From an uncultured Clostridia bacterium (GTDB lineage: Bacteria; Bacillota; Clostridia; UBA1381): DNA of 64,000 bases. The stretch spans positions 1 to 64,000 of the forward strand of contig CANQKM010000006.1 of NCBI GenBank assembly GCA_947624485.1, read 5' to 3'. Each line of letters starts with the position of its first letter. Within the stretch, counting starts at the first letter, position 1. Made by a program: the position numbers and the translations under genes. Below the pieces are notes generated by a model. That model saw only the letters and a program-made list of their open reading frames with translations, had not been told where the DNA came from and searched no databases. Positions 3,278-64,000 of the stretch are shown in pieces.

Positions 3278-3302
3278 CTACGGGTATTGTCGAAGGCGAT
3301 GC

Positions 3303-3418: not shown

Positions 3419-3427
3419 ATACATAAT

Positions 3428-3500
3428 GGGCGGCCAATGACCGCCCCTACGGATGTTGTTGCTGGCGATGCGTGAGCCTCCCCTAGTAGGGGAGCCATAC
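3428..3500. repeat. Shortened derivative of the palindromic repeat
   Basis: It starts with a GGGCGG/CCGCCC hairpin (3428-3446). It then repeats the flank CCCCTACGG...GGCGATGCGTGAGCCTC also seen at 3276-3311, and closes directly with AGGGGAGCCATAC as at 3410-3422. The middle of the long element is missing; only the two termini are left, fused as a 7-bp stem with a 3-nt loop (3478-3494). I read this as an internally deleted copy in tandem with 3256-3422. Confidence 0.7.
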
Positions 3501-3525: not shown

Positions 3526-4086
3526 TTACCGCAGCCACAGCCGCGCCGACAATGCGGCAAAGGCGGCGGCGGTAAACGACGCTATCCACACCGGCAGCAC
3601 TACCGAAAACGGATCAGCCGAACCGGCCGCGGCGCGGAGCGCGATAATTGTCGTCGGAATAAGCTGTATCGACGCGGTATTTATCACGACGAGCATACAC
3701 ATATTCCTCGACGCGTACTCCGGACGCGGGTTCTCGCGGTCGAGTGCGCGCATTGCCAGAATACCCTCGGGCGTCGCGGCGTTGCCCATGCCGAGCAGAT
3801 TCGCGCTCATGTTCATCGCGATATGTCCTTTCGCTTCCTCGCCCGCGCCGGGGAAAAGGAACGAAATCACCGGTCTTAGCAGCCTTTTTACCTTATCCCG
3901 AAGCCCCGACCTTTCCGCGATTTTCATTATTCCCGTCCAGAAACACATCACGCCCGCGAACGACAGCACGACAAAAACCGACTCCTTCGCGCCGTCAAAC
4001 GCGGCGTTTACCGTTTCGCCGACAGTGCCGTTCACCGCCGACACGACGAGCGACACTATTATCATCGCGCACCAAATATAATTCAT
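3526..4086 (-). CDS. spmA: Spore maturation protein A
   Basis: Polytopic membrane protein of the nucleoside-recognition/Gate family that works with SpmB in late spore maturation. The 186-residue length is normal. The diagnostic segment MNMSANLLGMGNAATPEG lies at residues 91-108. Hydrophobic helices lie near 4-19, 36-52, 130-150 and 161-180. The start at 4084-4086 follows an AAAGGGGTGA ribosome site about 5 nt away. It is the most upstream gene of the leftward block and is divergent from the giant gene. Confidence 0.93.
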   Translation of the reverse strand: MNYIWCAMIIVSLVVSAVNGTVGETVNAAFDGAKESVFVVLSFAGVMCFWTGIMKIAERSGLRDKVKRLLRPVISFLFPGAGEEAKGHIAMNMSANLLGMGNAATPEGILAMRALDRENPRPEYASRNMCMLVVINTASIQLIPTTIIALRAAAGSADPFSVVLPVWIASFTAAAFAALSARLWLR

Positions 4087-4149
4087 AATATCACCCCTTT
4101 GTTTTTATTCATAAATATCCCTGCATATACCACCGAAAGGCAGCTTTTT

Positions 4150-4364: not shown

Positions 4365-4393
4365 TTGACAATTCAAGAAAAAAGTCTTACAAT
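4365..4393 (+). promoter_or_regulatory. Near-consensus sigma-A promoter of the giant gene
   Basis: A perfect -35 TTGACA (4365-4370), a 17-bp spacer, and -10 TACAAT (4388-4393), one base from consensus. Transcription would start near 4400, leaving a leader of about 74 nt. It implies substantial transcription in vegetative cells by the housekeeping sigma factor, which is notable for a gene of about 60 kb or more. Confidence 0.85.
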
Positions 4394-4418: not shown

Positions 4419-4462
4419 CCGGTAAACATTGGTAAAAATCAACAAAAGACCAGATTGATCTC

Positions 4463-4468
4463 AGGAGG
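4463..4468 (+). promoter_or_regulatory. Ribosome binding site that fixes the giant-gene start
   Basis: AGGAGG lies 5 nt before ATG 4474. An in-frame TGA at 4456-4458, 18 nt upstream, rules out any earlier start in this frame. The next in-frame Met (codon 19) is inside the signal peptide. Confidence 0.92.
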
Positions 4469-4473
4469 ACAAT

Positions 4474-4572
4474 ATGGTACTGCGCAAGGTAACCCGCAAG
4501 GCTATATCTGTAGTTTTGCTGGCTGCAATGGCTGCGTCGTCGGTATCGTCGCAGGCGAGTACACTCGCCGCA
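4474..4572 (+). other. Signal peptide of the giant protein
   Basis: Residues 1-33 show a classical Sec signal: a basic n-region MVLRKVTRKA, a hydrophobic core AISVVLLAAMAASSV, and small residues before likely cleavage (after SQA or LAA). The mature protein then starts with polar, acidic sequence. Export across the cytoplasmic membrane is therefore expected. Confidence 0.85.
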
Positions 4573-7500
4573 GCGCCGGATATAACGCTTTTAACGCTTA
4601 TGTCCCAGACCGATGACGGAACGGAAAAACCTCAAAATTCGGAGACGGCAGCGTCCGCCGATACAGATGCGAAACCGGAAGGCACAGAATCCGCTGAAAA
4701 TGAAGAAGCGGAGGCTGTGTCTGAAAGTGATGCAGGGGAAAATTCCGAATCCGCGCAGACAACCCAAAACGACGGCGCTTCGTCCGAAACGGGCGCGCAA
4801 GGTCAGTCCTCCGGCAGCATTTCGGAAGGAAGCGAAGGCGGTTCTTCTTATAATGATTACAGCGAAGATTTATTCGAGACGGATACGGTCGGGGACGAAA
4901 ATCCGCTGACAGCGGGAAATCGCACAAGCAGCCTTATTTCACTGGACAAGCAAGCCATCGGCTTCACAAAGGTCGGCGACGTTGTTTCCGTAACGGCGAC
5001 CGTTGCGGACGGCGTTAACGACAATGTCGTATGGCGCGTGGCAGATCCCGAAAGACTTCGCATAAGAACATCGTCCGCGTCAGGTCAGACGAATACAGCC
5101 GAGATCGAGTGGATAGGCGAAACGGACGAGGAACAGCCGACAAGCACATTCTCCGCCGCGCTCGAATCCGATCCGGACGAGTACGTTGAAGGAACCGCTA
5201 TGCTTTTTGGCGGCAGTCAGACCTCGCAGAGCATTGGTGATGAAATTGACGACACAAAGGAACTGAAAACAGAATTTGAGTCGCCCGAGGTTGAAGAATT
5301 TCTCCGCGAGATGTATAACGAAGGCTTGTCGCAGGAAAACTCGGACTACGATTTGTCAAAGCTGTTTGACGATTCGGAGGACAAGACATATTCGCCTGTT
5401 GAGGAGGATGAACCCGAGGACGGCGATAAGATCATATCGGAGCTTGGCATGGTCGACACCGATTTGTTCATGGACAGCCTGAGAGAGAACGAGCTTGGCG
5501 ACACAACGTTCTCACTCGCCTCGACGGACGATAAGACGGAGACGGCGGACGACGAAAGTGAACGAGTTTCTTCCTATAATAATGGTGAATCCGAAAAGGA
5601 AGCAAATCAGACCGCGCCCGAAACGGAAGAGAAACCCGCTGAGCCTGTCACAGAGAAATCGGAGAGCGTAAAGAGTGAACCGGAGACAAAGACGGTTACG
5701 GAGACGGTTACCGAAAAAGTGACGTCGACCGAAACGCAGAACGTTTCAACCGAGACCACCACAACCGAAACGACGACAACGGAAATTCTTGACGCCGAAA
5801 CGCAGTACGAAACGGTTACAAAGGAAGTAACGAAGGAAGTTCCGAGAGAGGAAACGGTCGAGACGGAGCAGGTAATCGAAACGGAAGTGTTCAACGAGGA
5901 CGGCGATATGGAAACCGTCACCGAGACAATCACCGTTCCGACGGTGCAGACCGTATACGACACGGTTACGGAAACGGTCGAGGAGGAAGTCCCGACGGGA
6001 ACGCAGTACAGCGTAAGGGAAACGGTCGTTGTAAAGAAGGTCGTTACCGAGACGGTTACGAGCGCGGACGGCGAGGTTATTTCGTCGAGAGTTGTTTCGT
6101 CGGACGAAACGTCAAGCTCGAACGATTACGTTACGGACATTGAGCCGAATGTCGGCACGACGGAGAACGTTACGACGTCGACCGAAAACGGAACGCGTGA
6201 AAACACCGTTGAAACAGAGGTTGAAAAAACAGTTGAGAAAACCGTTACCGCAGAAGGCTCGTCCGACGAGAGCGAAAGTGAAAGCTCCGCTCCGCTCGCG
6301 CAGTTCGGTTCGGAAACCGGCTCGAAGAACGAGAACGTTCAGCCGGAGGTAACGGAGGACAATACCGTTACCGAAAACGACGGCGTTGACGTTCCCGATA
6401 AAGACGTTCAAAACGAGAAGCCGTCCGATGAAATTACAGGCGGCAAGAACGAAACGGAAACAGCGCCCGAAGAAAACAAATCGGATGAGACAAACAAAGA
6501 ACAAATTAAAGACGAAAACAATCCCGACTTATCCGTGAAGGGTGACGAGGGTACAGAAAATACAGAAACGGAGACGGACGAAAATGAAGTCACCGTAAAC
6601 GAAAACGAATTTGCCGAGGAGTTCCCGGAAATAGAGGACAAGCTTTCCGAGAATTACGACCTTGAGGCAATATCGCTCGATGAGGATTACGGTATAAATC
6701 TCATGGCGGTCGGCAGTCTTTCATCCGACGCGGAAAGCCTCAATTCGAGCGTCGGCAATCAGACGATCGCGATACGCGTTAATGACAGTCAGTCGCTTAA
6801 CGACTTGCTGTCGATGAAGGGTTACCACTATTCCGGCACGCCGACCGTGACTGACGACAGAATGGCGGCGGTTGGCGCGGACGGTAAGATAACGGGTAAG
6901 TCGCAGGGACGCACCACTATAGAATTTAACGATAGCGGCAATAAAATTCTCAACCTTGAAGTGTACGGCGAAGTCGAGGACGAGGTAACGCCGTCGGCGA
7001 TACCGATGGTCGTTTCGACCGGTACGTTTACACTGGCGCTGCAGAACAACGGTTCGGTATGGGGCTGGGGCAGCGCCGACGACCACAGACTTGCAAACGC
7101 TACGGGTACGTCGGTTATGGCTCCGAACAATATACAGATTAAGCGCGGCGGTAAGCTCACCGACCTCACCGGCATAAGACACATAGCCGTCGGCGACGGT
7201 CACGCGCTCGCGGTTACGAATGACGGATACGTTTATTCGTGGGGTATGAACAACAACGGTCAGCTTGGCAGAGGCAAGGACGCTCCGTCCACCTCCGACG
7301 GCAACCCGACGCTCGTCGTTAAGAATGACGGCGAGGTACTGTCGAACGTTGAGTATGTTTACGCGGGCGAGTATGCGTCGTATGCGGTTACGAAGTCGGG
7401 ACAGGTTTACGCGTGGGGACTTTCAATCTACGGTCAGCTTGGTATCGGTGAAAGCTACAGTGAAGAGAAGCCGGAAGCGTCGTTATACAATATCGGCGCG

Positions 7501-10500
7501 GCGACACCCGTTGACACGACAATGGACGGCGGCGAGTTCGGAAAGATAATAAAGATTTCGGCGGGTTATTCGCACGCAATGGCTCTTGACGTGAACCATA
7601 ACCTTTATATTTGGGGCGCAAACGTTGACGGGCTGCTTATAAACAATAATGAAGCATATAACAATGTAACATATATAAACAGACCTGTAAAGAGAGAGAT
7701 AGACGGCGCTCCCGGTTACATTATCGACATAGCCGCGGGCGGAACGTTTACCGAAAGAACCGATACATCTACCGGTTCGACAGCGGAACTGAAATTCCAC
7801 TCCGTAATCTTATTCAACACAGAACGTGACAATGTGTATACATGGGGACACAACGAAACGCGTCAGCTTGGTTACACCACCAAAGATTTGGGCGACGGTA
7901 TACTCGACTCCAATGCGACACCGACGGCAGTCACGACCGACGTGGAAGATTCACAGAGCGGAATGCATTTTGAAGGCTTCAACAGCAAAGTAGTTTCCGT
8001 AACTGCGTCGGCGACAAACACGGCTGCGGTTGTTGCGCATGAGAGCAGCAATAACGGTATCGTTTACGTCTGGGGTGACAACACGTATAAGCACCTTGGC
8101 TTTACATACACCGATGCAAGCAATGAGGTTGTCGATCTGCGCCAGTCCGATCCGGGCAGAGTTCTTAACAGCTTTGGCGGCAACTACACCGATTACATGA
8201 CCGATGTGGATCAGGTTGTTCTCGGAACGTTTACCGCGACAGCCGTGAAGTCGGACGGTACTGTTTGGTCGTGGGGTTCAAACACCTACGGTCAGCTCGG
8301 TAATCTCAATTACGGTAAAGTAAATCAGCCGACTCCCGTTCTCACGGGCGACGGCGAGGTAAAGAAGCTTATCGCGAACCATGTCGTTATCGCCGAGGAG
8401 GACGAGGACGGCAACGAGGAAATCATAAACGAATATACAAGGTACAGCGTAATCCCCTCCACGCTTTACATAACCACGGAACAGAAGGTAAAGGTGGATT
8501 ATGACAGCATTAAAATTCTGGAGGACGTCGGCTTTAACCTTTACAAGAATAACAAGCAGCTTGATCCCGCACCGCCGGTAAATCTTAACCCGGAACCGTC
8601 CGGCGTTGTGACGGGAGCGGACGACACGAGCGGCGGCGTGAGATGGTATGTGGCGACGCCGGACGATTTCCATGACAGTAAGAAAGACGTAACTCTCGTC
8701 ATATCGGATCAGTCTCCCGAAGAGGAAAAGGTCGGTCGCGGTGAAATCAAACTGAACGTCGCGCCGCCGAATATGTTTGCCGTTCCGATGATTGTTTCGG
8801 GCGACGACTTTACGGTTGCCTTAAAGTCCGACGGTACGGTTTGGGCATGGGGCGCGAATACGCACGGCCAGCTCGGCTACGGTTTAAGAGACGGCGCGAC
8901 CGAGGACACGCAGGGCCCCGTTCAGGTTCTTGCCGCGGCGGAACCCGTGACGGTCGGCGACGGCGGAGCATACGTTTATCCCGAGGAAAATGATAAGGTT
9001 CTGAAGGGCATACATAAAATTTCGGCGGGCGAGCATCACGTTCTCGCTCTCGCAAGCGACCAAACAGTTTACGCGTGGGGCGATAACACGTACGGTCAGC
9101 TTGGTATAGATTCGACGGTTGACCAGAACCGTCCCGTTAAGGTGTTCAGCGGCACGTTCGACGGCGCGGACGAGTATCTCGCGTTCGTGCAGGATATTGC
9201 CGCGGGCGGCAGACATTCGCTCGCGATTGTAAAAACAACGGAGCATTATTTCAACGACACCATTGATGAGGAGGATGACGGCGGCACGGTATCCGCGATG
9301 CGCCAGAGAGATATAAGCAGCATTTACGCGTGGGGCGCGAATGATTACGGTCAGCTTGGTTACACGGTTGACGATTCGCTTATCGGCGAAGGTCAATACG
9401 TTGCCACACCGGTGCGCGTCATAAACGCTCAGGCGGCGGGGTCCAGCGCCGAGGAGGAAGGAGACGGCACATCCGACGCTTACAGTGAGGATGTATATAT
9501 AAGAGACGCCGTAAAGGTCGCGGCGGGTAAAAATCACTCGGTCGCGATAGCGGACAGCTATACAGCTGCGGACGACATGCACGACAGCTATAAATATGTA
9601 ATAGCATGGGGTTCAAACGAATTCGCGCAGTCCGGCGGCGACATGGAGAGCGGAGATGATTACAGCCTTCCTTTCCCTCTCTCTTGGGGACTTGGCACCT
9701 ACGACAGACAGCAATACGAAAACGACTCCGAACCCACCACGAACCTGAGCGGTATTGTGGATATTGCCGCGGGTGACAACCATACGGTATTTTTAAGAGA
9801 GGACGGCGTGGCGCTCTCCATAGGCGACAACTCAAAAGGTCAGCTCGGACGCGGACTGAGTGACGCGTACGCTTCCAGGGTTGTCGAACAGGGCGATTAC
9901 GCGTATATTACGACTGACGGTACAAGCCCGCTTAAGGCAAGCGCGATTGCGGCGAGCGGCGACAATACGATTGTGCTTGACGATTCGGGAAATGTGTACC
10001 AGTTCGGCAGCAACTCGAACGGTCAGCTTGGCAACGGCAATAAGGACGACGCGAAGCATAACGTGGCGGTAAAAACCTCTGCGGACGAGTTTACCGCTTA
10101 CAGTACAACGTACAGGGGCGACAATAAAGCGATCGGCGCAGGTCTCGGCAGCAGCTACGTAATGCGCGAGGACGGTTACGTTTACGCGTACGGCGCGAAC
10201 GCGTACGGTCAGCTCGGCGACCTGTCGCGCGACGAGCGCCATAAGCCTGTGCAGGTGGGCGCGCTCGACGATGAAGTCCTGACGGTTGACGTTACGCTGC
10301 CCGGCGGTGAAAAGACGGTGAAAAACCCGACGGTCGTAAATGCCGTTAAGGGTGATACGATAAAAATAAGCGCGTCCGGCACTCTCACGGAGAGACGCGG
10401 CTTCAATCTTATAGTTATCGAAGATCCGACACACAGCGTGTCAGGTCTTACCTTCACGTCGTCGGACGATAAGATAGCGACGGTAAATCCGGACGGAACG

Positions 10501-13500
10501 ATTACGGCGGTTTCAAGAGGAAGCGTCGTTATCCGCGCGCAGTCAAATTCTGTGAAAAGTATTATAAACCCGGCGGTTAATAAGTCGGGTACGATGATGT
10601 TTGTACTTAATATAAAGGAAAAGGACGCGAGCGATCCCGCTCCGACGGACTTCTACACAGAGCCTATGGTAACGGGCGGCGACAGCTTCTCTGTGGCGCT
10701 TAAGTCGGACGGTACGGTTTGGACGTGGGGTTCAAACGATAACGGACAGCTCGGCAACGGACAGAAGAGCGGTACGGAAAACGGCGAGTACGTAGACCGC
10801 AAACAGTACCTCCCCGTGCAGGTAATAACCGAGGACGGCGCGGCGATAGACCGTATCATCGCGGTCGCAGCAGGCGCGAATCACGCCGTTGCGCTGCGCT
10901 CCGACGGTAAGGTTTACGTGTGGGGCAGCAACAGCCACGGTCAGATAGGTAACGGCGAGAGCGGTATCTATCAGGCAATCGAGGACTTCAGGAATTTGGA
11001 TCCGCACGATCCGATCGAGGAAGCCTCCGCTGATGAAGATAATAAGATTTATACATATAATATATACGAGCCGGAAGGTCTTATGCAGGTCAACGATATA
11101 ATAAAAGACCGTACAAATCTTCTTACATACGATGAGTACGGCGACAGCAATGAAACAGGTCATTACGTGTTTAACGTTATGGCTGACCTCGACATGACGG
11201 GCTATGACTTCAAGCCGATATATCTTGACGAGCGTGACAAAGCGGAAGAAGCAAAGGGTTTCCGCGACGTGTTCCACGGAAACGGTCACAGAATTTCAAA
11301 CCTTACGATAACAAAATCGGAAAATTACGTAATGAGAACCATGCACGACGAACTCACGTTCATTGCAGCCATGTTCGCGTACAACAACGGTACTATCGAC
11401 GGCGTTATACTTTCCGATGTGAATATAAACAACAGCGTGTCAACGTATTCGGACGGCTCGACGAGTAATGACGCTCAGTCGTACGCGGCGGGTATCGTCG
11501 GAATAAATAATCCGAACGGTAAAATTTCGCAGTCGGCCGTTTACTCCGGTACAATATCATCGCACAACAGCGCGGCGGGTATCGCGGTTGAGAACAGCGG
11601 TAAAATAGAAAACGTGTATAACCGCGCAAGCATAGAAATTGCCGAAAACGGCAACAATCTTTCAACGTACGCGGCGGGTATCGCGGCGGTCAACCATGAC
11701 GCAGCGGGCATTAAGACCGTTTACAGCAGCGGCAAGGTTGAGACAAAGAACAAAACAGAGGGACTGCTTCATTTTACGGGCAGCATTGTCGCGAGCAATA
11801 ACGCGCAGGCGACGGAGGACGGAGATAACTATACGGGTATTATTTCCGCGTATACAAATTCCGAGCTTCCCATAGCGGGAAATATCAACGAGGAAGAACC
11901 CGACAACATAAACGCTCCGCTCTACTCATATAAAGAAGTTGACCTTACCAACAAAACTCAGTTTAACGAAACGTACTGGGATTTTGAAAACACATGGGAG
12001 TACATTACGCAGTGGGATACGGATAAGCTCCCTGTGCTTGTGATAGAGACAGATCCGCCCGAAAAGGTAAATCTTACGGACTTTTCAAAGCGGGACGTTG
12101 TATATCCGTCGCTCGTAAACATGCGCGAGGGCGGTGAGCTTACGCCTATCGAAAATATCACGGCGATTGCCGCCGGCGGCAACAACACCGTCATGCTCAC
12201 GAGTACCGGCACGGTATACGCGCTGGGCGCTAACGACTACGGCCAGACGGGTAACGGCAACAACGGCACGTTTACGGAGTATAATGGCGTAAAGCTGCCG
12301 AACGCTCTCCCGAAGCATACAAGCACGGCGCAGAGAGTTATGAACGGCTTAAGTCCGAGCGGTAATATGTACGTGGACGACGTTATAAAGATTTCGTCGG
12401 GCGACAACTACACCGCCGCGCTTCGCTCAAACGGCAAGGTGCTGACATGGGGCGACGGCTCGAAAGGTCAGCTTGCGAACGGTGAGACAAGCTTAAGAAA
12501 CCAGCCTGTTTATGCGCAGTTAGAAGCAACAACGGCGCAGATAACAAACGCCGCCGATATTGCGGCGGGCGGTGAGCATGCGCTCATGCTCGCGTTCGGA
12601 AATGATCTTTACGGCTGGGGCAATAACGATATGCAGCAGCTTACGTCGGCTGTTTCCGACAAGCAAAAAACGCGCGCGGTCGTTATCAAGAGCGAAACGA
12701 TCGGCGGCAGTCTGGCAAACATGACCATAAAGCAGATTTCTGCGGGCGGCAAGCATTCCGGCGCACTCGTGTATACAAGCGGAACGTCGGATATTACCGG
12801 CGGCGACGCGACGGCAATTTACACGTGGGGCAACAACTCCGTTGACGAGGTTTACGAGGACAGCGACCACGTGCTTCAGACGCGCCGCGCGGCGACAGGT
12901 CAGCTTGGCACGGACGACCATTCAAGCGCGTCTGTCGGCGAGCCGAAGCAGGTACTGCGCGGAACGAGCGTAAACAAGAACAACAGCGAAAGCTTTATCG
13001 ACGCGCTCTACTTCGGCGCGGCGGGCGATCACACAATCGCGATAAAGAATGACGGCTATGTGTACTCGTGGGGACTTAACGACATGGGACAGATAGGCGA
13101 CATTTCATATAACAACAGATACACGCCCGTTATGACGGGCGACCTTGAAGCGCGTATTCTTATGATGGATAAGATACACGCCGAAAGCGATTCCGAAACA
13201 AAGCAGGCGGTGGATTATCCCGTTGAGCCTGATACGGATATTCCCGTGGCGATAAATATCAGTCCCGAATCCGAGGCTGTAATTTACGCGCTTAACACGT
13301 CGGAGAAATTCCTTTCCGGCTTTAACATGCTCAACAACAACAAGATTAACCCGACCGACAAGGCAAATCTCGGCAAGATAGTTTTCTCGTCCTCGGATGA
13401 GACGGTCGCGTCGGTTGAAACGGTGATAGAGACGCAGAAGCAGGAGCCGAGCGGTGAAGATGAAGGTGAAGAGGAAGAAGACAAACCCGAAATTATTACC

Positions 13501-16500
13501 GGTGTGAACGGCGTTATAAAGGCTCACGGCAAAATCGGCAGAGCCACGATTGTGATAAACAACACCGAAACGGGTTATATCGGTTCGATAGTTATAAACG
13601 TAACGGACGGTCTGACGCTGCCGCAGGTTGTGACCGGAAAGGACTTTTCGGCTGCGCTTTCGGCAAGCGGTAAGCTGTATACATGGGGTGACAACTCTAT
13701 GGGTCAGCTTGGCAGAGCGATTATTGAGGATGAGGAATACTCGTACATTCCCGAACAGGTGGAAATAGGCGACGGCAGGGAAATAATATCCGTGGCTGTC
13801 GGCGACGACTTCACCGCGGCACTCGACACGAAGGGCGAGATTTGGACATTCGGAGGCAACAGAAGTCTGCAGCTTGGCAGAAAGACACCGGTAACGACGC
13901 AGAATGCGGACGGATCGGTGACTCAGGAGGAGGGCTACAATTACGATTACGCGTGGAAGCCGGATAAGGCGGAAATACCCGACAGCATCGGCGGCAGCGT
14001 GAAGTTCCTGAGCCTCACCGCAGGCGGCGGCAGCGTGTACGCGCTAAGTGAAACCGGTACGGTTTACGCGTGGGGTAAAGCGTCACAAGGTCAGCTCGGC
14101 ACAAGCTCGACCGTTACGACGCCCGTGATCGCGGCAGCGTCGAAGGGCGCGAGCGCGAGCCTTACGAGTAATCTGGAGGACGTTATAAGAATAGAAGCGG
14201 GCGACGATTTCGCGGTAGCTGTAAAGAGAAACGGAGACGTATTCGCATTCGGCTCAAATTCGTACGGTCAGCTTGGAAACAACGCCGACGACAGCCAGAA
14301 GAACGTACCGATACAGGTATGGAAGGGCGATTACGTATATAACGGCGACACGTTTATCCACCATGCCGTAGATGTTGCGGCGGGCGGACACAGCGCGGCG
14401 CTTATTGTGCAGCAATCAAAAGAAATAAAAGAAACGGTTGAACCCGAGCCTGAACCTGAACCGGCGCCCGAACCAGGTCCGGAATCGGAGCTTGATTCGG
14501 AATCTGATCCCGAGCTTGGTCCGGAGCCTGAACCCGAGCCTGAACCCGAACCGGAGACGATAACGAGAACGGTTTATTACAACACGTTGTATACGTGGGG
14601 TAAGGACGACGCAGGTCAGCTTGGTATAGGCAAGCAGAATTACGTAACCTACACAATACAAGGTCAGCCGAAAGAGGTTAAGCTTGACAATGTAAGAAGC
14701 GTTGCCGTGGGCGGCAACCATATGCTCGCGCTCACGACGGACGACACAATGTACGCGTGGGGCAGCAATTCAAGCGGTCAGCTCGGTATAGGCGAGTATG
14801 ACATGACGGAGATAACGGATTACGACGCGGAAAACAAGAACGCGTACGCTCCGCTTCCCGTATACGACGGGGAAACATATGAAAAGGCGCAGTTCGGCGA
14901 CCATAAGGATAAGAAGGAGACGGACGGCGATTATTCAATACCGGTATATCTCATAAGCGCGGGCAGAAACTATTCGTCCGCGGTAAGATCGACCGGCAGA
15001 CTGTACTCGTGGGGTTCAAACGAAAGATGGCACATCGGCGATTACTCCACGGGTGACAAGAGCTTCCCGACGCAGGTCGGCATGAAGGAAAGCAATACGA
15101 TAGATATTAAGGGTGCGGAAAAGAGGCCTTCAACCGGCGGCAGTCAGCCTTACGACAGTCTGCCTACGGAGGTTGAGCTTGTCCGCAACTATAACACAGC
15201 ATATTATGAGCGGCTTGCGATTGACGCGGGCGAGCTTTACATGGATATAGAAAACAGATTTAATCTGTTTGACAACAATGACGAAGACGGCGCGAAAATT
15301 CCCGACGTCGCTTTGTCTGATTTTGCTGTCGTGAATACGAATTTGTTTAAGCTCACATTGGAAGACGGTAAAATCATTGTCACGCCGAACGACGATTACC
15401 GTTTCGGCACAACAACGCTTACAATTAAGAAAAACGAGTTCATAAAGCAGATTACGCTTAAGCTCATTCCGCAGGAAGGTCAGGTTGAACCCGTAATCAC
15501 CTCCGGCAAAGACTTTACCGTTGCGCTCAAGTCGGACGGAAGTCTGTGGGCGTGGGGCGCGAACGATCACGGTCAGCTTGGCGACGGCACGTCGATTGAC
15601 CGCGCATACCCCGTGCGCGTGCTTACGAAAGAGGTTTACGAGGAGCTTCAGGAGCATGTCGCGGACGCGATGAGTAACTACAACGGTAACTTTAACCTCG
15701 ACAGCGAGGAGGAGTACACCATATTCAGACTTGCCGCGGCGGGCGAAACGTTCACGCTTGCGGTCGAGGTCGGCGCGGACGGCGATAAGCTTTACGCGTG
15801 GGGTGACAATACGCTCGGTCAGCTCGGCGTTGCGATTGATGACGGCGTTGTACTGCCGACGTACGAAAAACAGACGCTTTACGATTTGAACGGAAACGAG
15901 ATTATAGGATACAACGATGAGGAAAATCACCGTCCGTATCTGTGGATGACGACGGATGACAACAACGTTAAAACCTACAGATACGCGAATGTTCCCAAAG
16001 CGGTAAACACAAAGTATATTTACAAGGATGAGGAAGACGAAACGCCGCTCGACGCCGAAGGTAATAAGATAACGGTTGACGACGATGGTTTCCCGACGGG
16101 CGGCGACAAGGACAAGCTGCTCGTTCTGGACGAAGAACCCGAAGACAGCGAGGATACAAACGGCGATTACATACTCGGTTACGAGAGAACGGAAAATCCC
16201 GTATACAACGACGAAAGCGACAGATACACGCTTACGCCGGTTGTCGGCTACCGCGATGACAACAAGCCGTATCACGGCAGAACGATAGAGGTTAATCTGC
16301 GCGAGTGGACGACAAAAACCGTTATGGGCGATGACGGTCAGCCCGAACCCGACGACAGCGGCACCGGTTATAAAACGGAAAGGGTACTCGAGGTTAAAAT
16401 AGGCGAGGACGGATTGCCCGTTAAAGAGACGCGCGTAATGTACTTTAACGAACCCGATCCCGTTCCCGAAAAGCACATAGACAACAGACTTTTGCCAGTT

Positions 16501-49500: not shown

Positions 49501-52500
49501 CTCGCGGTTAACGAGGTATCCGTCGGCGAGGACAACAAGGCTACGCAGATAGATATGAGAGACACCCACTTTGCCGCCACGGGCTACGATGCTAAGGCGT
49601 ACGAGTGGAACGGCGCGGAGACGACGGCGTCGGCTGCGAACGTGGAGGGTGATGTAATAATCACAACCGCGGGCGGCAAGCATACGACCGCAATCAATTC
49701 CGAAGGTAAGGCATACGCGTGGGGCGACAATACGCACTATCAGCTCGGCGACGGAACGAATATCGCGTTTACGGCAGACAAGCCGGCAGAGGTCAACAAG
49801 GTACCCGACGGTATCAGAGTACACAGCGCGTCAAACGGTGCAACGGTATACGAGGCTCTCGCAAACTACGCGAACCTCCACGATATGTACGAGTTTACCG
49901 TTACAAGCGGCGGCGAGCTTACGATAAGCAGCGTCGACATATTCGCGCCGTACAGATACAACGTGCTGCATACAAAGGGATGGAATACATTCCTCTATAA
50001 TGACGAGAATAAGGCGTACAGGCTTGAGGCGCTTAACGACGCGCTTGTAAAGATCGATGGCAGCAAGATCGTTACCGTGGACGGTCAATACGGCACTGCG
50101 TATGTGCGCATAGTCGAGCTTAACGCCGACGGCACGGACGGCAATAACGTAGGATTTATAAGAGTAAACGTAATACCCGACGGCGCGGTAACGGCGCCTA
50201 TGGTATCGGCGGGTACGGACTTCGTGCTTGTGCTTACCGATAAGGGTGACGTATACGCATGGGGTTCAAACAGCCACCATAAGGTTCAAGACACAGAGAA
50301 CAGCTATTACACGCAGCCCATGCTTGTTACGGGACTTAGCAATATAGTAAAGATTTCCGCGGGCGACACGCACGCGCTTGCGGTTGACAAGGACGGCAAC
50401 GTATACGGCTGGGGTAACGATGAATTCCACCAGCTTGCTTCGGGTACGCCTTCCGAGCCGACGAAGCTCGGTATAAGCGGCGTCGCAGACGTTGCGGCAG
50501 GTCAGGAGCATAGCGTATTCCTGAAGAAGGACGGCACGGTATGGTCAATAGGCTCCAACGAGTTCGGTCAGATAGGCAACAAGCAGAACGACGACGCTTA
50601 TAAGACAACGGCTGCCGTTGCTACGGAATTCGGTCCGACGAAGATGCTTAACGACATAGTAAGCCTCGGTGCGGGCGACGGTCACACGGTTGCCCTCACC
50701 ACGGGCGGTACGCTGTACGCGTGGGGTAGAAACAACAGCCGTCAGCTCGGAAATATAGACGACGGCAATGAGAAATATATGAAGCTCGACGTACCGAGAG
50801 AAGTAATCGGCAACAGAGACGAGCTTGAATACACAGACGAAGAAATTAACGCAAACGGCAGATTCAAGTACAATATCGCGAAGATAGCGACGAAGGACGA
50901 GCATAATGTCGCCCTTTCCGGCGACGGCAGAGTCTGGACGTGGGGTTACAACTACTACGGACGTCTCGGCGACGGTACAGACACGTCGAGAAATATGCCG
51001 GGCAAGGTAATGTACGCCGAAAACTATACGTTAAAGGCTATCGGCGGCAAGGATACGCCGATAATAGACATAGACGCGGGCAGATCTCACAACCTGGCGA
51101 TCCTGAAGGGTGAGAGCGGCGAAAGCAATACCGTATACGCGTGGGGCGACAATATGTACGGTGAACTCGGCGACGGCACGAGAGCGCAGAAGTCGACGGC
51201 CGTAAAGGTACAGAGCGAGTTCGGCGGTGACTTTGAGGGCGCGATAGGCATTGCCGCGGGTAACGAGCATTCCGTTCTGTTTAACGGCAGCGGCGAGATT
51301 TACACCTTCGGTAACAACGCAGAAGGTCAGCTCGGTATCAGAAACGCGGCGGACAATGACGCGGATTACAAGACAAGCTCCTCTGTTCCGACGCTTCTGG
51401 GAAGCTCGGACGGCGCGAGCAAGGGTATTATCCCGACGGTAATTGTCGCTGACAACATGAATACTCCGTCAGTTAAGTACACGTCAAATCTGCCGGGTAC
51501 GCTGTCGATTTATCCCAACCAGCACCTTCTTATCGACAAGAACACGCTGAAGGTTATCACGGCGGTATCGTCGTTCAACATCTACGCGTCGCAGGGTACG
51601 GGTTCGTCGTCTACGACGGGTACGAACGCAAATCCGAGCGACGTACAGGTAACGTTTACAAGCGATACGGACAATCTGCTTACCCTGAGCGATAATGTCA
51701 GCGCGACCTTGGACGAGGGCGCGACTCAGGTGTTTGAGCTTGCTCCGAACACCTACGGTGTTGCGAACGTAACCGTTACACACGCAAAGACGGGATATAC
51801 AAAGACATTTACGGTAATTATAAAGCCCGAAAACAAGGCGGGCGAATCCGCTATGATTACGGGCGGCGAGAACTTCACAATAGCATTGAAGTCCGACGGC
51901 AGCGTATGGACGTGGGGTGACAACACGTACGGACAGCTCGGCAACGGCGAGTCCGGCGCGAATAAGTACGCGGTCAACCCCGCAAAGCTTGCGTCGCTTA
52001 CGGGTATAACAGAAGTTGCGGCGGGCAAGAGCTTCGCTCTCGCGCTCAACAGTACAACGGGACAGCTTTACGCGTGGGGCAGCAACTCCGACGGTCAGAT
52101 AGGTCAGGGTTCCGTCACGGAAACAATGTATACGACGCCGCAGACGGTAAACCTCAGCGAGCTTACCGCCACGGAAAAGATTACGAGAATAGCGGCGGGC
52201 GACAGCTTCGCAATGGCTCTCACGAATGAGGGCAATGTATACGCGTGGGGCGATAACAGCTTCAAGCAGATGGGACGCGACACCGACGGACGTCTGCCGG
52301 CGTTCTACAAGCCGTTTAAGATTGATATTACCGGCGCATCGCAGATTGCGGCGGGCGCGCACCATGCAATGGTATACGCCGGCGGCAAGGTTTACACATG
52401 GGGCGCGAACGGCTCCGGACAGCTTGGCAACGGCACCATTAAGAGTGAAACAACGGGCGGAGAAGCATTCAGCAGCACAACGCCGATAGATATTCCGCTT

Positions 52501-55500
52501 CATACGTATACCGATACCGAGGAAGTCAAGCCGAACGAGGAGATAGTTCAGATAGCGGCTCGCGGCGACTATTCCGCAGTGATTACGAGCGAGGGCAGAC
52601 TTCTCATGTGGGGTTCAAACAGTACCGCGCAGCTCGGAACAAGCGATAAGAGCAGCGTACCCACGGCTACGGAAATTGTGGCATACAGTGACGAACACAA
52701 CGAGCATAAGTATGTATTCTCCGGCGTTGCGCTGGGCTACAACCATGTTGTGGCTATTACGAATGACAGCGCGGTACTCACATGGGGCGCGAATACATCC
52801 GGTCAGATCGGCGACAATTCACAGGTAGAGGCGTTCAGTCCGAAGAAGACCTATTCGGGAGAGACTGCGGAAGACTCCACCGCTCCGATGTCCAATATGT
52901 GGGGCATAGGCGCGGGTTACAACTCGTCTTACGCGGTAACCTCGAACGGTATAGTTTACGGCTGGGGCGATAACACGAAAGGCCAGATAGGTATCGGCAG
53001 AGACGCGGATACGAACGCTCTTACCGAGAGTGTGCTTACGGCTAAGCTTGTGAGACTTGCCGATGAAAACGGCATGACCGCTACCGACGCCAAGCTAAAC
53101 GGCACGGCGATCAAGCTGCCGTACAACATAGAAATCACGCCGGACGACGAGCTTGTATTTGACAATACAAACGTTGTATTAACGGCTGCAAATCTTGAAT
53201 TTAATCTGTTCTCGTCGAACGAGCTTACGGTTCACACGGCGCAGACCGCAGACGTTAAGTATTATTCGCTCGATCCGTCGGTTATAGGCGTTGAGGAGTC
53301 TACGGGACGCGTAATAATACCCGACGCCACAAAGACAAACGGCTTCGGCACGACGCTCATTAAGATAGTCGAGCAGACGACGAAGCGCGAGGCGTTCGTA
53401 AAGGTATCCGTAAGACGCGAGGACAGCCCGAAGGCGGAGACAGGCGTATTCTCATCGCCGTATCTTGACGGAAAAGACGTTCAGGTAATGCTCAGAAACG
53501 ACGGCACGGTATGGACGTGGAACCTTGATACGGAGAGCGGAAACGGCTTCGGTCAGATGGGAAGAAAAGTAAATAACGATATAACGGAACCCGGACAGGT
53601 AACGGGCAACAGTCTTGACACAAACAAGGTTGTACAGGTAAGCGTCGGCAACCGTTTCGTTGTTGTACTCACCTCCGACGGCAAGGTATATTCGTGGGGT
53701 GCGAACTCCAACGGTCAGAACGGTTACAGACCGAGAGCCGCAAGCACAACGCCGGTAACATCGTCCATAAGCTACGAGAATGTGACGGTAACGCAGATAA
53801 GCGCCGGTGATTCGCACGTTGTGGCTATGACGAGCGACGGCAGCGTATATGCTTGGGGTAACAATACCTACGGCAACCTCGGCAGCAAGTCGCTGCTCTA
53901 CAGCTACATGCCGGTTCAGATTATGTCGAACGGCGAGCCGATAAAGGCTAAGCAGATAGCCGCCACCGAAAACGGCGGTGTTGCCCTTACCGACGACGGC
54001 AAGGTATACGTATGGGGCGACGGTCTCAACGCACCCGAGCTTATGACGGCAGGTCAGAGCGCGGGCGACGCGGACGGCAACCTTACGGATATAGTAAGAA
54101 TGTATACATACGGCAACAGCGTATACGTCGCAAAGGCTGACGGCAGCGCGTACACATGGAACAGAAAGTCGCAGACGGCTTCGCTCCATGCGCCGGAACT
54201 GTATAAGGAAACCGAAAAGCGCAATCTCAACGTCGTTTACGCGGATATAATGGAAAACGACGAGAACGTTGCGGATATAATAGAGAGAACGATGCCGTCC
54301 GGTTCGGCTGACGAAATCGCGGCTAAACAGGCTGAGCTTGACAAGGTACACTTCGTAATGGCTAACCCGCTCACGAAGTACTCTCTGGTAGAGCTTAACC
54401 CGTCCTCGCGCGTGCTTCAGATTTATCCCGATAAGATATTCGGCGACGCGTATGTGGACACTGTCGGCGTATACGACAGAGCAGGCTTTGAAATGACGGG
54501 AGAGAGACTTACGTTCACGTCAAGCAATCCTGCGGCTGTAACAGTTGATTCGACGGGCAAAGTATCAGGAAACGGCAAGACGGGTACGGCTACGATAACC
54601 GTTACGGACAATATTCTCGGCAGCAGCTTCAGCTTTGACGTAAAGGTAACCGACGCGTCGGGAACCTCGGAGACGAGAGGCATGGTCGTATCGGGCGATA
54701 ATCATACGCTCGTACTCCGCACGGACGGTACGGTATGGTCGTGGGGCGATAATACATACGGTCAGCTTGGCTACGGCGTATCGGGCGCGGATAAGGGTTC
54801 ATTCGTACCGCGTCAGGTTCGTATAGGACAGAACGATCAGAACAAGACGGTTCTCACAAAGATTAAATATGTAGCGGCTTACGGCAATAGGTCGGCGGCT
54901 GTGGACAGCAACGGTATACTCTACGTATGGGGTGACAATAAGAATAATATCCTCGGCGTAGACGGCGCAGCGAAGCTTGAATATCCTACGCCGGTAACGA
55001 CGCTCTTCAAGAGCGGCGCAGATATTGTGGCTGTCGATAAGGTTGCGCTCGGTGAAAACCATGTGGCTGTACTCGCAAGAGAGGGCGCGGACAGCAATAT
55101 GATTTACACGTGGGGCGACAACACGTATAATCAGCTTGGCTACCAGTGGACAATGACGCAGGAGAATTCTGCCGTAACAACGCCGTTCGATGAAAATTAC
55201 GGAACGAACGGACGTATAGTATCGGCTGAGTATCAGTCGTCGCACTTTGTGGACTTCGCGTCGGGCGCGAACCATATAGTTGCGATACTGAACGACGCGA
55301 CAGACAACACTTACGGCACTGTCGTAACATGGGGACGCAACAATAACGGACAGCTTGGTATCGGCATGACCGAAACAAAGCTGGACGACCGGGGCGAGCC
55401 GTATACAGTGCCGATTACCTCAAAACGTGTCGCGGTACGCGTTCAGAAGGAGGACGGCAGCAATATTACCGACGCGGTAGCTGTCGCGTCCTACGGCGAT

Positions 55501-58500
55501 TTCTCACTCGCGCTCGACAGAAACGGCAATCTGTGGGCGTGGGGCGCGAACACGTACGGACAGCTTGGTCAGGGCGGCACGTCCGATTATATAGCTAAAG
55601 CGGTACAGGTTAAGGGTATCACCGGCGACGGTTATCTTACGAACCTGAAGCTGCCGTCAGAGCAGTCTGCGGATATTTCCGGAGGCGTGATTTCCGCGTC
55701 GAGAAATAACGCTATGGCGCTCGGCAAGAACGGCAGAGTATACGTATGGGGCAGAAATGATAACGGTCAGCTCGGTACGGCTTCCACGCAGGATCAGAGC
55801 GAGGAAGCGCTGCCGAAATACGACAGCTATTATCCCGTAATGCAGAGCGATATGGTTGATATTATGTCGGTATCGCTCGGAGAAGGATTTGCGTCGGCAC
55901 TTTCCGATGACGGCAACGTTTACTCGTGGGGCAGAAACGACTTAGGTCAGATAGGCAACAGCACCTTTGACGAGCAGCTTGTGCCGGTAGCTTCGGGAGC
56001 GAATTCAAAGCTCGTAATAAAGAACGCGTCGATTATAACGTATGACAGCGACGATAAGAGCGAGGTCGTAACGACCGAAGAATTCCCGACCTTCAGCCTC
56101 ATGTCGGCAAGCGGTAAGGTAAGGGTAGACAAGACGTTCTCCGAAGAGGAGAAGGACACAGCTTCTATCGATGACAGCTTCGTACTGTTCGGCAATGCTA
56201 ATTTGGTAGACACATCCGAGATACCGAATTACACGAGCGAGGACGTATTGCCGAGAACGATTACTCTTACGAATAACGAGAACGGCAAACCGCAGCAGTT
56301 CGCGCTTGACAAGAGCGCGGTATACAGCGAGCTTCGTTATTATCTCAACGCAATAGCGGACAGCGACACCGATACGTTCCAGGTAGAGGATATTTACATG
56401 GTATCGGCTGATCCGACGCTGTTCACGGTATCGGATAACTGGCTTGTAACGCCGACGCAGAAGGCTATTGACAGAAGATACGCGGTAACGACGCTTATTA
56501 TAAGAGACAGAACGAGAAACATCTCTCAGACCTTTGAGCTGCAGTTCAGAGGCTCAAAGAGAAAAGATGTGGAATTTGACACAGATATATTCACATCGCC
56601 GATGGTATCGACGAACGGTATAAACACCATCGCGCTTATGGCGGACGGTACTGTATGGACGTGGGGTGACAATCAGTACGGACAGCTCGGCAACGGCGCC
56701 GGCAGCGCAGAAACATCCGTATCCGCGCCGATACAGGTAAGAAGCTCGTCAGGCGACGGTTATCTCACCGGTATTATTAAGGTGGCGCAGGGCAATCGCC
56801 ACAGCGTGGCGCTGTCCGAGGACGGCAAGGTATACGTATGGGGCGACGGTGAAAAGAACCAGCTCGGCGGATACGCCAGAAGACTTCTTCCGACGCTTGT
56901 CACAACGGGCGGCGAAGGAGAGTACCTCAGCGGTATCGTTGACATTGCGGCGGGTGATAGCTTCACCGCGGCGCTCGACGAGCGCGGCTACGTATGGACG
57001 TGGGGCGACAATACATACGGACAGCTTGGTATAGAAACAACCGCTACAAGCTTTGCTCCGCAGAGAGTTAAGAAGGGCTTAAGCCGCAGCATGACGACAT
57101 ATCTTGAGGATATTGTTGACATTGCGGCAGGCGCTAATCACATGCTTGCACTCGACAAGAACGGCAGCGTATGGGCGTGGGGTGATAACAGATACGGACA
57201 GCTTGGTGAAATTACCGGCGGCGACGAGCTTAGCTGGACGAAGTACACCGTTGACGGCAATGACGGTAAACCGCTGCAGTACAGCGGTGAGACAACCGAG
57301 CAGTTTATTGCGAACTACAGAGTTGCGCCCGTAATGACGTACATAAACGACGTAGAGAAGATTTCGGCGGGTTACAACAGTTCCGCCGCGATAAAGACCG
57401 ACATGACCGCGTGGGCGTGGGGCGATAACCGCCGCCGTCAGACCGGTACGGGCAGCGACGCGGATTATATCACACTTCCGAAGGCTGTTATGTACAACGG
57501 AAAGCAGCTTGACGAGGTAAGACAGATTGCGGTGGGTGAGAACCACATGAACGCACTCCTTCTCATCGATACGGAGGAGCAGGCTGTCGAACCCGAAAAT
57601 AAGGATAAGGTCAACGTCCTCACATGGGGCATGAACCTTAACGACAAGTCTCACAGCAAGTATAATGATACAGCCGTACCGCTGATTGACAACGCGGATT
57701 ACGTTGCTGTAGACCTGTTCGGCGGCGAGCGTGAGTCCGTTGAGAAGATAGCTGCCGACACGATTTGGGTTGTGGCCGGCGGCGACCTCAGCTTCCTCGT
57801 AAGATCTAACGGCGACGTATACGCCATAGGTATAAACGATAATAAGCAGCTTGGCACGTCCACGAACAACACCGAGGACAGACCTGTTCTCGTCGGTATG
57901 GGCAAGACTATTGACACTGTAGACATAACCGACGGTTACGTTGTAAAGAGATACGCGGACAGCGTAACGGCGGACAATTACAACACCTACGACGAGGAAA
58001 ATCCGATACGCGTTTATAAGGACGCGGACGGTTACAACGTGCTTCCGTACGAGGTTGACCTTTTGAGAAGCGAGAAGCTCGTACTCGACTACGATATCAA
58101 CAATATGATAGTCGATTCACAGCGCAGCTTTAACCTCATTCAGAGCCACTTCCGCTACAGAGAGGCGGGAGAGGTATGGTCGCTCAATCCCGACCTCGTA
58201 ACGGTATTTACAGACAATGCGGGCAGAATACACATAAGACCTACGGAACACCTCGACAGTCCCATATCTGTAGGCACGACTTACGTTGTTGTAAACGCCG
58301 GCAGCGACAAGGGCGGCAGCAACGCGAAGGGTATAATAAGAATCAACGTACTGCCGATGGATGTTCAGTACGACGGCAGAAACGACGTTGTGGTACAGAA
58401 GGACAGCATAGTTGCTCCGTCCGTATCGACGGGCGGCGACACCACTCATGCCGCAATGGCTGCCGTAACAGACAGCGGTATACTCTACACCTGGGGCGAT

Positions 58501-61500
58501 AACGCTCACGGTCAGCTTGGCATAGGCACGACCGAGATTAAGTTCTCAACAACACCGACAATAGCAATAAGCAGCGGTATAAGAAAAGCGCTCGTGGGCG
58601 ACGGCTTCATGGTAGCGCTCACGACCGACGGCAACGTATATACATGGGGACTTAACGACCACGGTCAGCTTGGTATCGGCTCCGGCGCAGGCAGCAGTCA
58701 GGTCAACACGCCGACACATGTTGACGGTATCGAGGGTGTAATAGACATAGCGGTCGGCACAAGCCATACGCTGCTTCTCACCGCTTCGGGTACGATCTAC
58801 GCGTTCGGACGCGGCACCGAGCAGCAGCTTGGGCCTGGTACGGTCGTTGACATAGCGAGACCGCAGAAGGTATTTATAGATGAAAAGATAAAACCCGCGG
58901 CAATATTCGCGGACAAGAATACAAGCTATATTCTCACAAAGGGCGGCGACATCATCTCGTGGGGCGCGAATGTATCCGGCAGCTTCGGCTCGTCAGAGTA
59001 CGAGGGCAGCGGTCTCGCATACGCCGACACGAATAAGCTCACATACAGCGCGACGAACGAAAAGTTTGTCACGATGGCTGTCGGCGCGCACAGCGTAATG
59101 GCTCTGTCCACGGGCGGCCGTCCGGCAAAGGCGGAGGATACGGGAGAATTGATAACGTCGCAGACCGTCTACGGCTGGGGCATCAACACGTATAACCAGC
59201 TTGGTATGGAAACGTTGGTGGACGAGGAGACTGACACGGCTAAGTTTGCGACAACCGTATACGATCCGACTCCGTCGTACTGGTTCAACAAATACGACGG
59301 CAGCGTTGACAAGGACGATATAAGACCGACGTCGATTGCCGTGGGCAACACGGGTTATGTAACGTATGACAGCGGTAATGTGTACGTACTCGGCGACAAC
59401 AGAAATTCCGTTGCGGGTACGGCGCATAACGAAGGCGTTGGTATGCTCGGTATACATGATCCGAATATAGACGCGAAGTACACTGGCGAACACCTCCTCA
59501 AGGCGGGCGAAAGCAAGCCGCTCGATACGGAGGCACCGTTTACGGACGCGATAGCTATGGCTGTATCGTCGTCCGGCGCAGACGCGGTTATCTTCAATAA
59601 CGAAGGTAAGATATTCACATGGGGTTCAAACGTTCAAGGTCAGATAGGCGACGGTACTCAGGAGAACCGCTCGTATCCGGCTTCCGTTCTCATGGACGGC
59701 GGCGGCAACTATCTCGACTTCTCCGAGGCTAAGATTACACGCAACGATCAGGAGAACAACGTTAAGTTCTACTATGACACAATTCTCCGCAAGGGCGGCG
59801 CGCTTGACGGCGTTATCGAAACGGCTGTAAGACAGGGCGATACTGTTCAGTTCGACATCGGTTCGGTTGTAGGTATCGTAGGATTTACCCTGTTCGGCAG
59901 CTCGGCGTACAAGCCGCAGCAGCTTACCTTTGAATCGGTCAACCATGACGTTGCGTGGTTCGACGGTGAAGACGCGGGAATGTATCAGGGCGAGAACGGC
60001 GCGAAGAACAGCGCCAATAACGGCGCCGCGCACGGCTTGCTCCATGTGGGAGAAAAGACGGGCGTAACATACCTCATCGCGCGCGACTCACGCAAGAACG
60101 TGGGTGTAATTAAGCTGAACGTTATCCCCGCGGGTGAGGACAGCAGCAACGTAATGCCGATGACTGCGATAGGCGAAAAGCACGCTATAGCGCTTAAGTC
60201 CGATGGTACGGTTTGGGCTTGGGGCGACAACGCTTACGGTCAGCTCGGCAACGGAACTTCAAAGAACACGACAGAGCCTGTTCAGGTATTGAAGCGTGAA
60301 ACACCGACCTCAAGTCCGACGGCTCTCACGAATGTAATAAAGATTGCCTCGGGCGGCAACCACAACCTCGCTCTTACAAGCGACGGTCACGTATACGCTT
60401 GGGGTACAGGCTTCAACGGCGCTCTCGGCAACGCTTCCGAAGGCGACTACAATATCCAGAGATACGCCGTTAAGGTATACGGCACGACAAGACTTGTCAA
60501 CGGTCAGGAACACTACCTCGGCGACAGTCTTACGAGCGATACCATAGGTTCAAGAATTATAGACATTGCCGCGGCGGGCGTAGGCTCACGAGCCACCACA
60601 ACGACGACGCAGTATTCGTTCGCGCTTGATATAGACGGTAATATTTACGGCTGGGGCAGCAACACGAAGAAGGTTGTATCGCCGCAGGCTTCGGCAACCA
60701 GCCGAATCCTCCTGCCGAGAAACATCACGTCGGCGAACACCATTATGCAGGGCGGCTATAAGCTTGTTGCCGATAAGATAGGCAAGTCGATGCATCTCTT
60801 AAAGCGCGACGGTCAGATTATATCCTGGGGCAGCAACGAAAGAGGCGTTTACGGTATAGGCGGCGAAGAGCTTAACCTCACGTCGACTTTGCCGAGCCGC
60901 GCACTCCTGAAGGAAAGAGCGCTCGCGGCGTTCGCGGGTACGGATAACATCGGCGCGATACTCATAAACGGCGACGTTGATATGTGGGGCGACCTCACGC
61001 AAGGTCAGCTTGGCTACGGCGCGGACATGGAAGGCGCGGAGGTACGTCATAACGCCGACTACACGCTCCCCGAAAAGGCGTATAAGTTCTCGTGGCACGG
61101 CGATTGGAATGATGAGGAGGGTGCGTTTGACACAACTCCGGTTGACTCGTTCCCGCTCGGCGGCGACATATCCACATACGTTCAGATGTTCTATCAGGAC
61201 GGCGGAAATACGACAAGGGATTATGACGAAACTGAGGAAAGCGCGCTTGACCGCAGCGAAAGAGGCAACCTGTGGGCTGCCGGCAGCTACGGCTCGCCGC
61301 TCGGCAGAGATCTTATAAAGACCGGCAAGCAGATTACGGTAAACGTGCCGAATGACGAAGGCGGCGTTGACCAAGTAGAGCAGGATGAATACTATAAGAC
61401 CGACGGCAGCGTAATCATGGGTATAGACAGAGTACGCGCCGGTAAGTCGGATATAAGCGGCGGCATAAAGAATGTAGTGATTGCCTCGAACGGTATATTC

Positions 61501-64000: not shown

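Follow-up and report, generated by a model that had tools for sequence, protein, structure and literature searches.

The window, that is, the whole stretch of 64,000 nucleotides analysed here (positions 1-64000 of the 185,810-bp contig C6; coordinates above 64,000 are given on C6), holds an open frame that leaves it without a stop codon. Giant open reading frames of bacteria are frequently met with doubt, or their architecture cannot be read, and this locus raises the question of whether such a frame is one gene, what its product might do, and how it is distributed among related genomes. We followed the frame along the contig and compared the host genome (G000) with the other genomes of its genus (G001-G015, 16 in all). 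The giant gene proved to be complete, its architecture can be read almost throughout, several genomes carry it, and it is under purifying selection along 33,000 codons; it is thus well suited to studies of how a 3.6-MDa chain is made, exported and anchored by a cell.

A single gene under purifying selection

The frame set by ATG 4474 runs on the forward strand over C6:4474..63999, comprising 19,842 codons without a stop, and is still open at the window end, as the preliminary description had claimed; followed past position 64000, as was proposed there, it continues to a TGA that ends at C6:103575. The complete product has 33,033 aa (99,102 bp), with a calculated mass of 3.588 MDa and a pI of 4.46, and the gene accounts for about 3.6% of the 2,715,828-bp host assembly. 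The mass of about 2 MDa given earlier holds for the visible part, which is 60% of the protein, and falls short of the full product of 3.59 MDa, while its place among the very large bacterial genes is borne out. The start had been described as real, and it reads that way: a ribosome-binding site precedes the ATG (Table 1), an in-frame TGA lies at 4456-4458, 18 bases upstream of ATG 4474, and the protein begins with MVLRKVTRKAISVVLLAAMAASSVSSQAS, which resembles a signal peptide by eye. Three promoter-like sites were found in the region, as against 2.7 expected from shuffles, and the one at 4365-4393 is nearest to consensus. No known RNA element was matched at gathering score in an Rfam scan of the window.

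A chance frame was rejected, since the logarithm of the probability of finding no stop (ln P) is about -1555 at the base composition of the gene, and stops are abundant in the other five frames (1,724 and 1,956 in the two other forward frames; 288, 1,278 and 1,578 in the three reverse frames). Third-position GC is even along the gene (0.61-0.63) and somewhat higher in the three upstream neighbours (0.68-0.72). A separate copy of 33,065 aa is present in a sister species, G010, the MAG "uncultured Clostridia bacterium isolate Lapin-001__bin71" (contig CANQDD010000042.1). The two proteins align over 32,996 residues with 93.5% identity and 51 indel sites, and both frames are open throughout. Overall dN was 0.035, dS 0.165 and omega 0.213, the latter ranging from 0.127 to 0.337 among the 33 full windows of 1000 codons. 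The giant is thus a single real gene, kept as a protein under purifying selection over its whole length.

An assembly artefact or a fusion of neighbouring genes might be suspected, as the host assembly is a draft of 35 contigs; however, the longest exact direct repeat within the gene is 32 nt and contig C6 contains no N bases, so that repeat collapse or misjoining is unlikely, and together with the dN/dS of 0.213 and the presence of a 37-unit gene in two other genomes (G010 and G001), this makes an artefact scarcely credible. None of the frameshift, internal stop or collapsed repeat named as grounds for doubt in the preliminary description was found in the assembled sequence.

Table 1. Positions of features at the giant locus (positions without prefix lie in the window)
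Feature	Position	Strand	Basis or remark
SpmA-like gene (presumed label), left flank, last chromosomal gene before the giant locus	3526..4086	-	homologues in 14 of 16 genus genomes
Sigma-70-type promoter-like site, TTGACA-17-TACAAT	4365..4393	+	11 of 12 consensus bases
Ribosome-binding site AGGAGG	4463..4468	+	five bases 5' of ATG; read from the sequence
Giant ORF	4474..64000, on to C6:103575	+	ORF reading, rest of contig C6
Signal-peptide-like N-terminus, aa 1 to ~34	4474..4575	+	judged by eye
Glu/Thr/Ser-rich acidic linker, to ~aa 730	4576..6663	+	composition
RCC1 array, aa 846-23,795	7009..64000, on to C6:75858	+	Pfam; own blade and spacer profiles
Propeller 3 and spacer with long insertion	10660..13614	+	unit length 985 aa
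Propeller 13 and Ig-like spacer, modelled unit	31366..33066	+	AlphaFold2, Foldseek
First downstream gene, 2,044 aa	C6:103859-109993	+	two Dockerin_1 stretches over cut-off, cadherin-like, Flg_new_2
Second downstream gene, 819 aa	C6:109993-112452	+	ORF
Small ORF between secreted proteins of the cluster	C6:112742-113173	+	ORF
First SLH gene, 5,730 aa	C6:113425-130617	+	SLH, Big_2, YDG (Pfam)
Second SLH gene, 3,948 aa	C6:130748-142594	+	SLH, MBG_2 (Pfam)

Propellers, stalk and tail

Coherent domains throughout, as opposed to a random frame, had been claimed from the window, and they extend over the whole protein as an RCC1 propeller array, a stalk and a tail. The array of G000 comprises 246 blades by a profile built here, mostly arranged in sevens, which make up 37 propellers, 30 of them complete inside the window. 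Seven blades were detected in 29 of the 37 propellers, six in five and five in three (split units merged). The Pfam families PF25390, PF00415 and PF13540 exceed their cut-offs by far throughout the array, and the spacers between propellers are Ig-like, in places Big_2-like, and mostly about 100-200 aa long. Its composition is acidic with very little cysteine, and the protein is built of repeated folds.

Propeller 13 with its spacer was modelled by AlphaFold2 using 23 of the 30 window units, with a mean pLDDT of 82.1 and a pTM of 0.81. The best Foldseek match was UVR8 (4dnv_B, E 6.6e-32, TM by target 0.86); the nearest structures were UVR8 and other RCC1 domains, and BLIP-II (3qhy_B, E 9.4e-17) followed further down. 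By Pfam and by the modelled unit, the giant shares the seven-bladed RCC1 fold of the RCC1/BLIP-II beta-propellers, such as UVR8, HERC1/2, RCC1 and BLIP-II. Unlike these known proteins, it carries 37 propellers in one chain, together with Ig-like spacers, a stalk and a docking-like tail.

The propellers are followed by a stalk of about 8,700 aa, from about aa 23,900 to 32,560, which consists of cadherin-like beta-sandwiches (Pfam PF12733, up to E 1.1e-45). Our own profile found at least 29 cadherin-like domains in the G000 stalk, and parts of it are recognised by neither PF12733 nor this profile. Stalk length is about 7,600-8,700 aa across all five complete giant genes. In the tail, a CarboxypepD_reg-like module comes first; two dockerin-like halves follow, separated by an acidic low-complexity linker, and the second of them starts with CDFNADG in G000. 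Motifs place the starts of the two halves 254-424 aa from each other in all eight tails compared, and we propose that the tail is a split dockerin. In Pfam searches, the first half had no match, whereas the G000 tail matched CarboxypepD_reg-like (E 2.3e-5) and, on its last half, Dockerin_1 (E 0.0014, 19.2 bits against a cut-off of 22.9), both below cut-off. The last half of the G011 tail gave weak EF-hand matches and no dockerin, and that of G015 matched neither.

Neither a catalytic family nor an SLH domain was found by Pfam in the giant protein, which was scanned whole except for a few codons at the locus joins. Matches to DUF6476 (just over cut-off) and to US22 and DUF7369 (below cut-off) look spurious. 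Sortase anchoring was rejected, as the C-terminus (...SDNLTAQNRTLVTAYDMN) lacks the pattern of LPXTG, hydrophobic stretch and positive tail. The protein exceeds the length of 5,000 aa that marks the exported giant class, to which it would belong by a signal peptide judged by eye.

The order of the propellers is maintained across species. All 37 propellers of G000 are reciprocal best hits of the 37 in G001, a more distant species, in the same order and with 36-53% identity, and the same correspondence in order holds for all 37 of G010. In G004, whose gene is cut by a contig end, units 11-37 match in order with 52-77% identity. Within its own protein, in contrast, the best match of a G000 propeller reaches only 24-38%, which falls below the 36-53% to the orthologous G001 unit, and recent tandem expansion was rejected on these grounds. 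As judged from the alignments, the array is an old, fixed series of distinct modules.

The number of propellers differs among the giants (37 in G000, G010 and G001, 15 in G006 and 13 in G011, with split units merged). Nine G000 propellers have reciprocal best hits in the shorter G006 gene, again in order, and seven of these nine pairs fall among the last nine units (29, 30 and 33-37 of G000 with 7, 8 and 11-15 of G006). Because the G006 matches cluster there, the ancestral part of the array seems to be its C-terminal end, and propellers would have been gained or lost on the N-terminal side. Since the 37 propellers keep their order from one species to another, the claim that every unit serves a purpose of its own can be put to the test.

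Neighbouring genes, distribution and exchange

The giant gene heads a cluster (C6:4474-142594) that takes up about 5% of the genome, in which it is followed by a dockerin-type gene, further secreted proteins and SLH-type proteins. This order recurs in G001, G003, G011 and G015, and is similar in G010, where the contig ends inside a 5,000-aa gene; the domains were assigned by Pfam in G000 and by eye from the sequence ends in the other genomes. In the host genome as a whole, 96 SLH, seven cohesin and four dockerin matches were over cut-off. Cohesins over cut-off occur in 15 of the 16 genus genomes, and in the host they lie on contigs other than C6.

No cohesin reached the Pfam cut-off in the cluster, and Pfam searches with pieces of the first two downstream genes returned none. 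G001 and G003 each have a sub-threshold cohesin match in a cluster gene (E 0.047 and 0.077). A profile of 17 cohesins of the genus matched the N-terminus of the first downstream gene weakly (domain E 0.0004 in G001 and 0.037 in G011), and hhalign gave a probability of about 8% for cohesin against the first two downstream genes. Possible scaffold-like partners are encoded elsewhere in the host genome, where two neighbouring proteins (G000:C21:8001-19545, L081), 1,186 and 1,489 aa long, each contain two cohesins and a dockerin.

The 5,730-aa SLH gene has a run of nine G (C6:113417-113425) just after its signal peptide, which is out of frame, while the corresponding tract of G010 (C42:15062) has eight G and the signal peptide is in frame. 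The run of nine G is the only G/C run of at least eight in the 185,810-bp contig C6. Unless it reflects a sequencing error, the tract resembles a switch that makes a surface anchor phase-variable; since the signal peptide is out of frame, anchoring by this protein may be off in this strain. Another G/C run of eight, the only other one in the G010 stretch examined, lies within the giant gene itself, near its start, at about aa 710 (C42:121898).

Several minor observations concern the surroundings of the cluster. Two intergenic copies of a repeat-like element with inverted-repeat character (gaggagaggtggcatcgc...gatgacggagaggtggcaatg ... cagtcgcctncggcgacagctcccctcaaggggagcc) lie at 90-210 and 3290-3500 of the window, and the stretch upstream of the SLH gene looks related to them. 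A 21-base tandem repeat (gatgacacgtcgcctttgagc) is present in about three copies at 1319-1380. Among the flanking genes, the names tpi, pgk, spmA, ileS, rpsL, yqeY and DUF2130 are those we presume from the sequence. The small gene between the secreted proteins of the cluster, which we take to resemble a DUF559-type protein, has a similar ORF between tpi and pgk in G011 and G015.

Long RCC1 frames are widespread in the genus. Those bounded by stops have 33,065 aa in G010, 29,377 in G001, 17,616 in G006 and 15,707 in G011 (from the first Met), and those cut by contig ends have 17,112 aa in G004, 13,554 in G009, 13,547 in G003 and 13,449 in G015, so that a frame of more than 10,000 aa is present in nine of the 16 genomes, including G000. 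With the 5' ends of giants at contig edges in G007 (807 aa) and G012 (2,384 aa), the count rises to 11 of 16. RCC1 proteins lie in a 551-codon frame in G002 and G005, three matches were found in G014, one weak match in G013, and no RCC1 match in G008. In the order, 40 of 95 genomes have an RCC1 match, and among the matches listed, frames of more than 10,000 aa belong to this genus or to G024 and G031, which represent two other genera of the family. RCC1 matches were found in 145 of the 391 genomes of a class sample, where the longest RCC1 frame outside this order, among the matches listed, has 5,128 aa.

The locus occupies different chromosomal sites. At site S1, between spmA and DUF2130, it is present in G000 and G010, while the site is empty in G011, G013 and G015, where the SpmA-like and DUF2130-like genes are adjacent. 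The S1 junctions at 4110 and 142672 of G000 correspond to positions 11772 and 11856 of G011, 83 bp apart, with no target duplication evident between these two genomes. At site S2 (yqeY, a 411-aa gene and ileS), the locus is present in G011 and in G015, of which the ileS side alone is readable, and no insertion is found in G000, G010 and G013; the states of S1 and S2 refer to these five genomes. At site S3, beside rpsL, it was found in all five genomes readable there (G001, G006, G007, G009 and G012). A gene that we take to be integrase-like adjoins yqeY at S2 in G010 (L138:2849-4066) and G013 (L139:2937-4313); since these two genomes have no giant at S2, the site may be a general insertion spot.

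G000 and G011 are closely related in their proteins (IleRS 98.9%, PGK 99.2% and TPI 98.8% identical), and their synonymous divergence of 0.29-0.48 in the four genes measured marks them as different species. G013 is about as close to G000 (98.6% IleRS identity); both S1 and S2 are unfilled in it, and no giant was found. The giant would therefore be dispensable in this group, provided that it was not overlooked in the G013 assembly, which is 90% complete.

The alleles of the giant diverge in a manner different from the rest of the genome. G011 and G015 hold the locus at the same site, S2, and their IleRS are about 99.7% identical, but their propellers are only 57% identical (median of 10 pairs). 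By contrast, G015 and G009 have 82% identical propellers (11 pairs) with IleRS at 92.0%, and G015 is closer to G009 than to G011 in each of 27 windows of 500 aa. Of six downstream cluster genes compared between G011 and G015, five are 40-69% identical and one is 90%; right after the cluster, identity stands at 96% for the 411-aa gene and about 99.7-99.8% for IleRS. The IleRS tree is partly resolved (four of 11 inner branches starred), and the argument for exchange rests on these pairwise values.

Between G000 and G010, dS in the giant (0.165; 0.055-0.39 by window) is lower than in four genes outside it (tpi 0.49, pgk 0.384, spmA 0.405 and ileS 0.316). After aa 32,000 of the giant it rises to 0.30-0.47, and it reaches 0.48 in the first downstream gene and 0.80 in the second. 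For the first SLH gene, the part that aligns gives 1.05, with a range of 0.22 to 2.3 among single windows. The simplest reading of these values is that about 96 kb, nearly the whole giant gene, was exchanged recently as one tract, with an older, separate and mosaic history for the docking tail and the anchors.

Because the locus differs among close relatives, either in its chromosomal site or by strong divergence of its alleles, we infer horizontal exchange, and the giant is apparently a very large, mobile bacterial gene. Ancient paralogues at several sites, followed by differential loss, would account for the existence of several chromosomal sites and for the strong difference between the long (37-unit) and the short (13-15-unit) giants, which are about 33% identical. 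Such paralogues would, however, hardly explain why giants at one site in nearly identical backgrounds (G011 and G015) are less alike than those of G015 and G009, nor why dS between G000 and G010 is 0.165 in the giant and 0.32-0.49 in the four other genes. Paralogue loss fits the divergence figures less well than exchange, and we regard it as rather improbable. If a gene of about 100 kb has been exchanged between species, recombination can move a gene of such size intact.

Proposed role and known systems

With moderate confidence, we propose that the giant is one exported 3.59-MDa, S-layer-associated multivalent adhesin or capture fibre, whose tail may be docked to proteins of the cluster and which appears to be exchanged between species. 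Export would follow the general secretory pathway, and the C-terminal tail may dock to the neighbouring dockerin/cohesin-like and SLH proteins, which in turn would bind the cell wall. The stalk would hold the propeller chain off the S-layer, where its many distinct binding faces would serve multivalent adhesion or capture. As a rough estimate, with 5 nm assumed for each propeller and 4 nm for each sandwich, such a fibre would be 0.6-0.7 micrometre long. Related species appear to exchange the propeller-and-stalk part in tracts of tens of kilobases, a pattern that suggests selection for swapping whole sets of binding specificities; these may concern host or plant surfaces, partner bacteria or escape from phages. 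More tentatively, and as a possibility we hold to be on the doubtful side, the fibre could be a library of 37 propeller receptors, each with its own ligand, of which the set is exchanged as an allele of about 100 kb at several sites, while the tail and anchors have a separate and more diverged history.

Among the other readings, a structural coat or sheath, an extracellular layer without specific ligand binding, is unlikely but fares best. The 39,678-aa giant of Velamenicoccus archaeovorus has been proposed as coat-forming (PMC10066038), and the giant studied here is likewise acidic, very low in cysteine and composed of stable repeated folds; yet a mere filler would not need 37 units with their own identity and constraint along the whole length. 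We consider it improbable that the gene encodes a secreted polyprotein, cut at the spacers into dozens of soluble propeller binders, for example inhibitors like BLIP-II. Its spacers would offer places for cleavage, bacterial RCC1/BLIP-II propellers include secreted binders according to one report (PMC9218822), and BLIP-II is a structural neighbour of modelled unit 13, but a conserved stalk, a docking-like tail and SLH neighbours make little sense for soluble fragments, and all 37 units keep their order. A predation or cell-wall-degrading device, in line with the degradation of target-cell polysaccharide proposed for the V. archaeovorus giant (PMC10066038), is very improbable given that no stretch of the protein, scanned as above, has a catalytic Pfam domain.

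The multivalent fibre that we favour would belong to the giant extracellular proteins, which are an already known kind. Giant proteins of 36,800 aa in Chlorobium and of 85,804 aa in Omnitrophota are also known. The V. archaeovorus giant is comparable in length, so that the protein described here is not a length record, and 42 transmembrane helices are predicted for the V. archaeovorus protein (PMC10066038). Most giant ORFs of the V. archaeovorus group are reported to have few annotated domains and to be poorly conserved (PMC10066038), whereas domains are recognised here over most of the chain and are conserved unit by unit. In a study of huge proteins, signal peptides were reported to be almost limited to those of less than 20,000 aa (PMC11573180); a 33,033-aa protein with a signal-like start would therefore be an exception.

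The closest likeness in gene arrangement may be seen in several surface systems. Giant1-5 of Apilactobacillus kunkeei are consecutive genes for giant extracellular proteins with recombination between strains, and they take up about 6% of a small genome, as compared with about 5% for the cluster here; they have 3,000-8,000 aa, and the first three contain beta-solenoids (PMC12863079). Unlike them, the present locus has one 33,033-aa gene with RCC1 propellers and a stalk, and with SLH and dockerin neighbours. The adjoining dockerin and SLH genes, with cohesins elsewhere in the genome, recall cellulosome-type surface systems, but no catalytic domain was found in the giant and the cohesin matches of the cluster are sub-threshold. 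A search for papers on giant RCC1 arrays or on bacterial RCC1 combined with dockerin returned none, an absence that weighs little because preprints and most subscription literature lay outside the search. An archaeal surface-protein island likewise varies between close lineages, with recombination; it extends up to 45 kb and includes several genes, while here one exchanged gene alone has about 100 kb.
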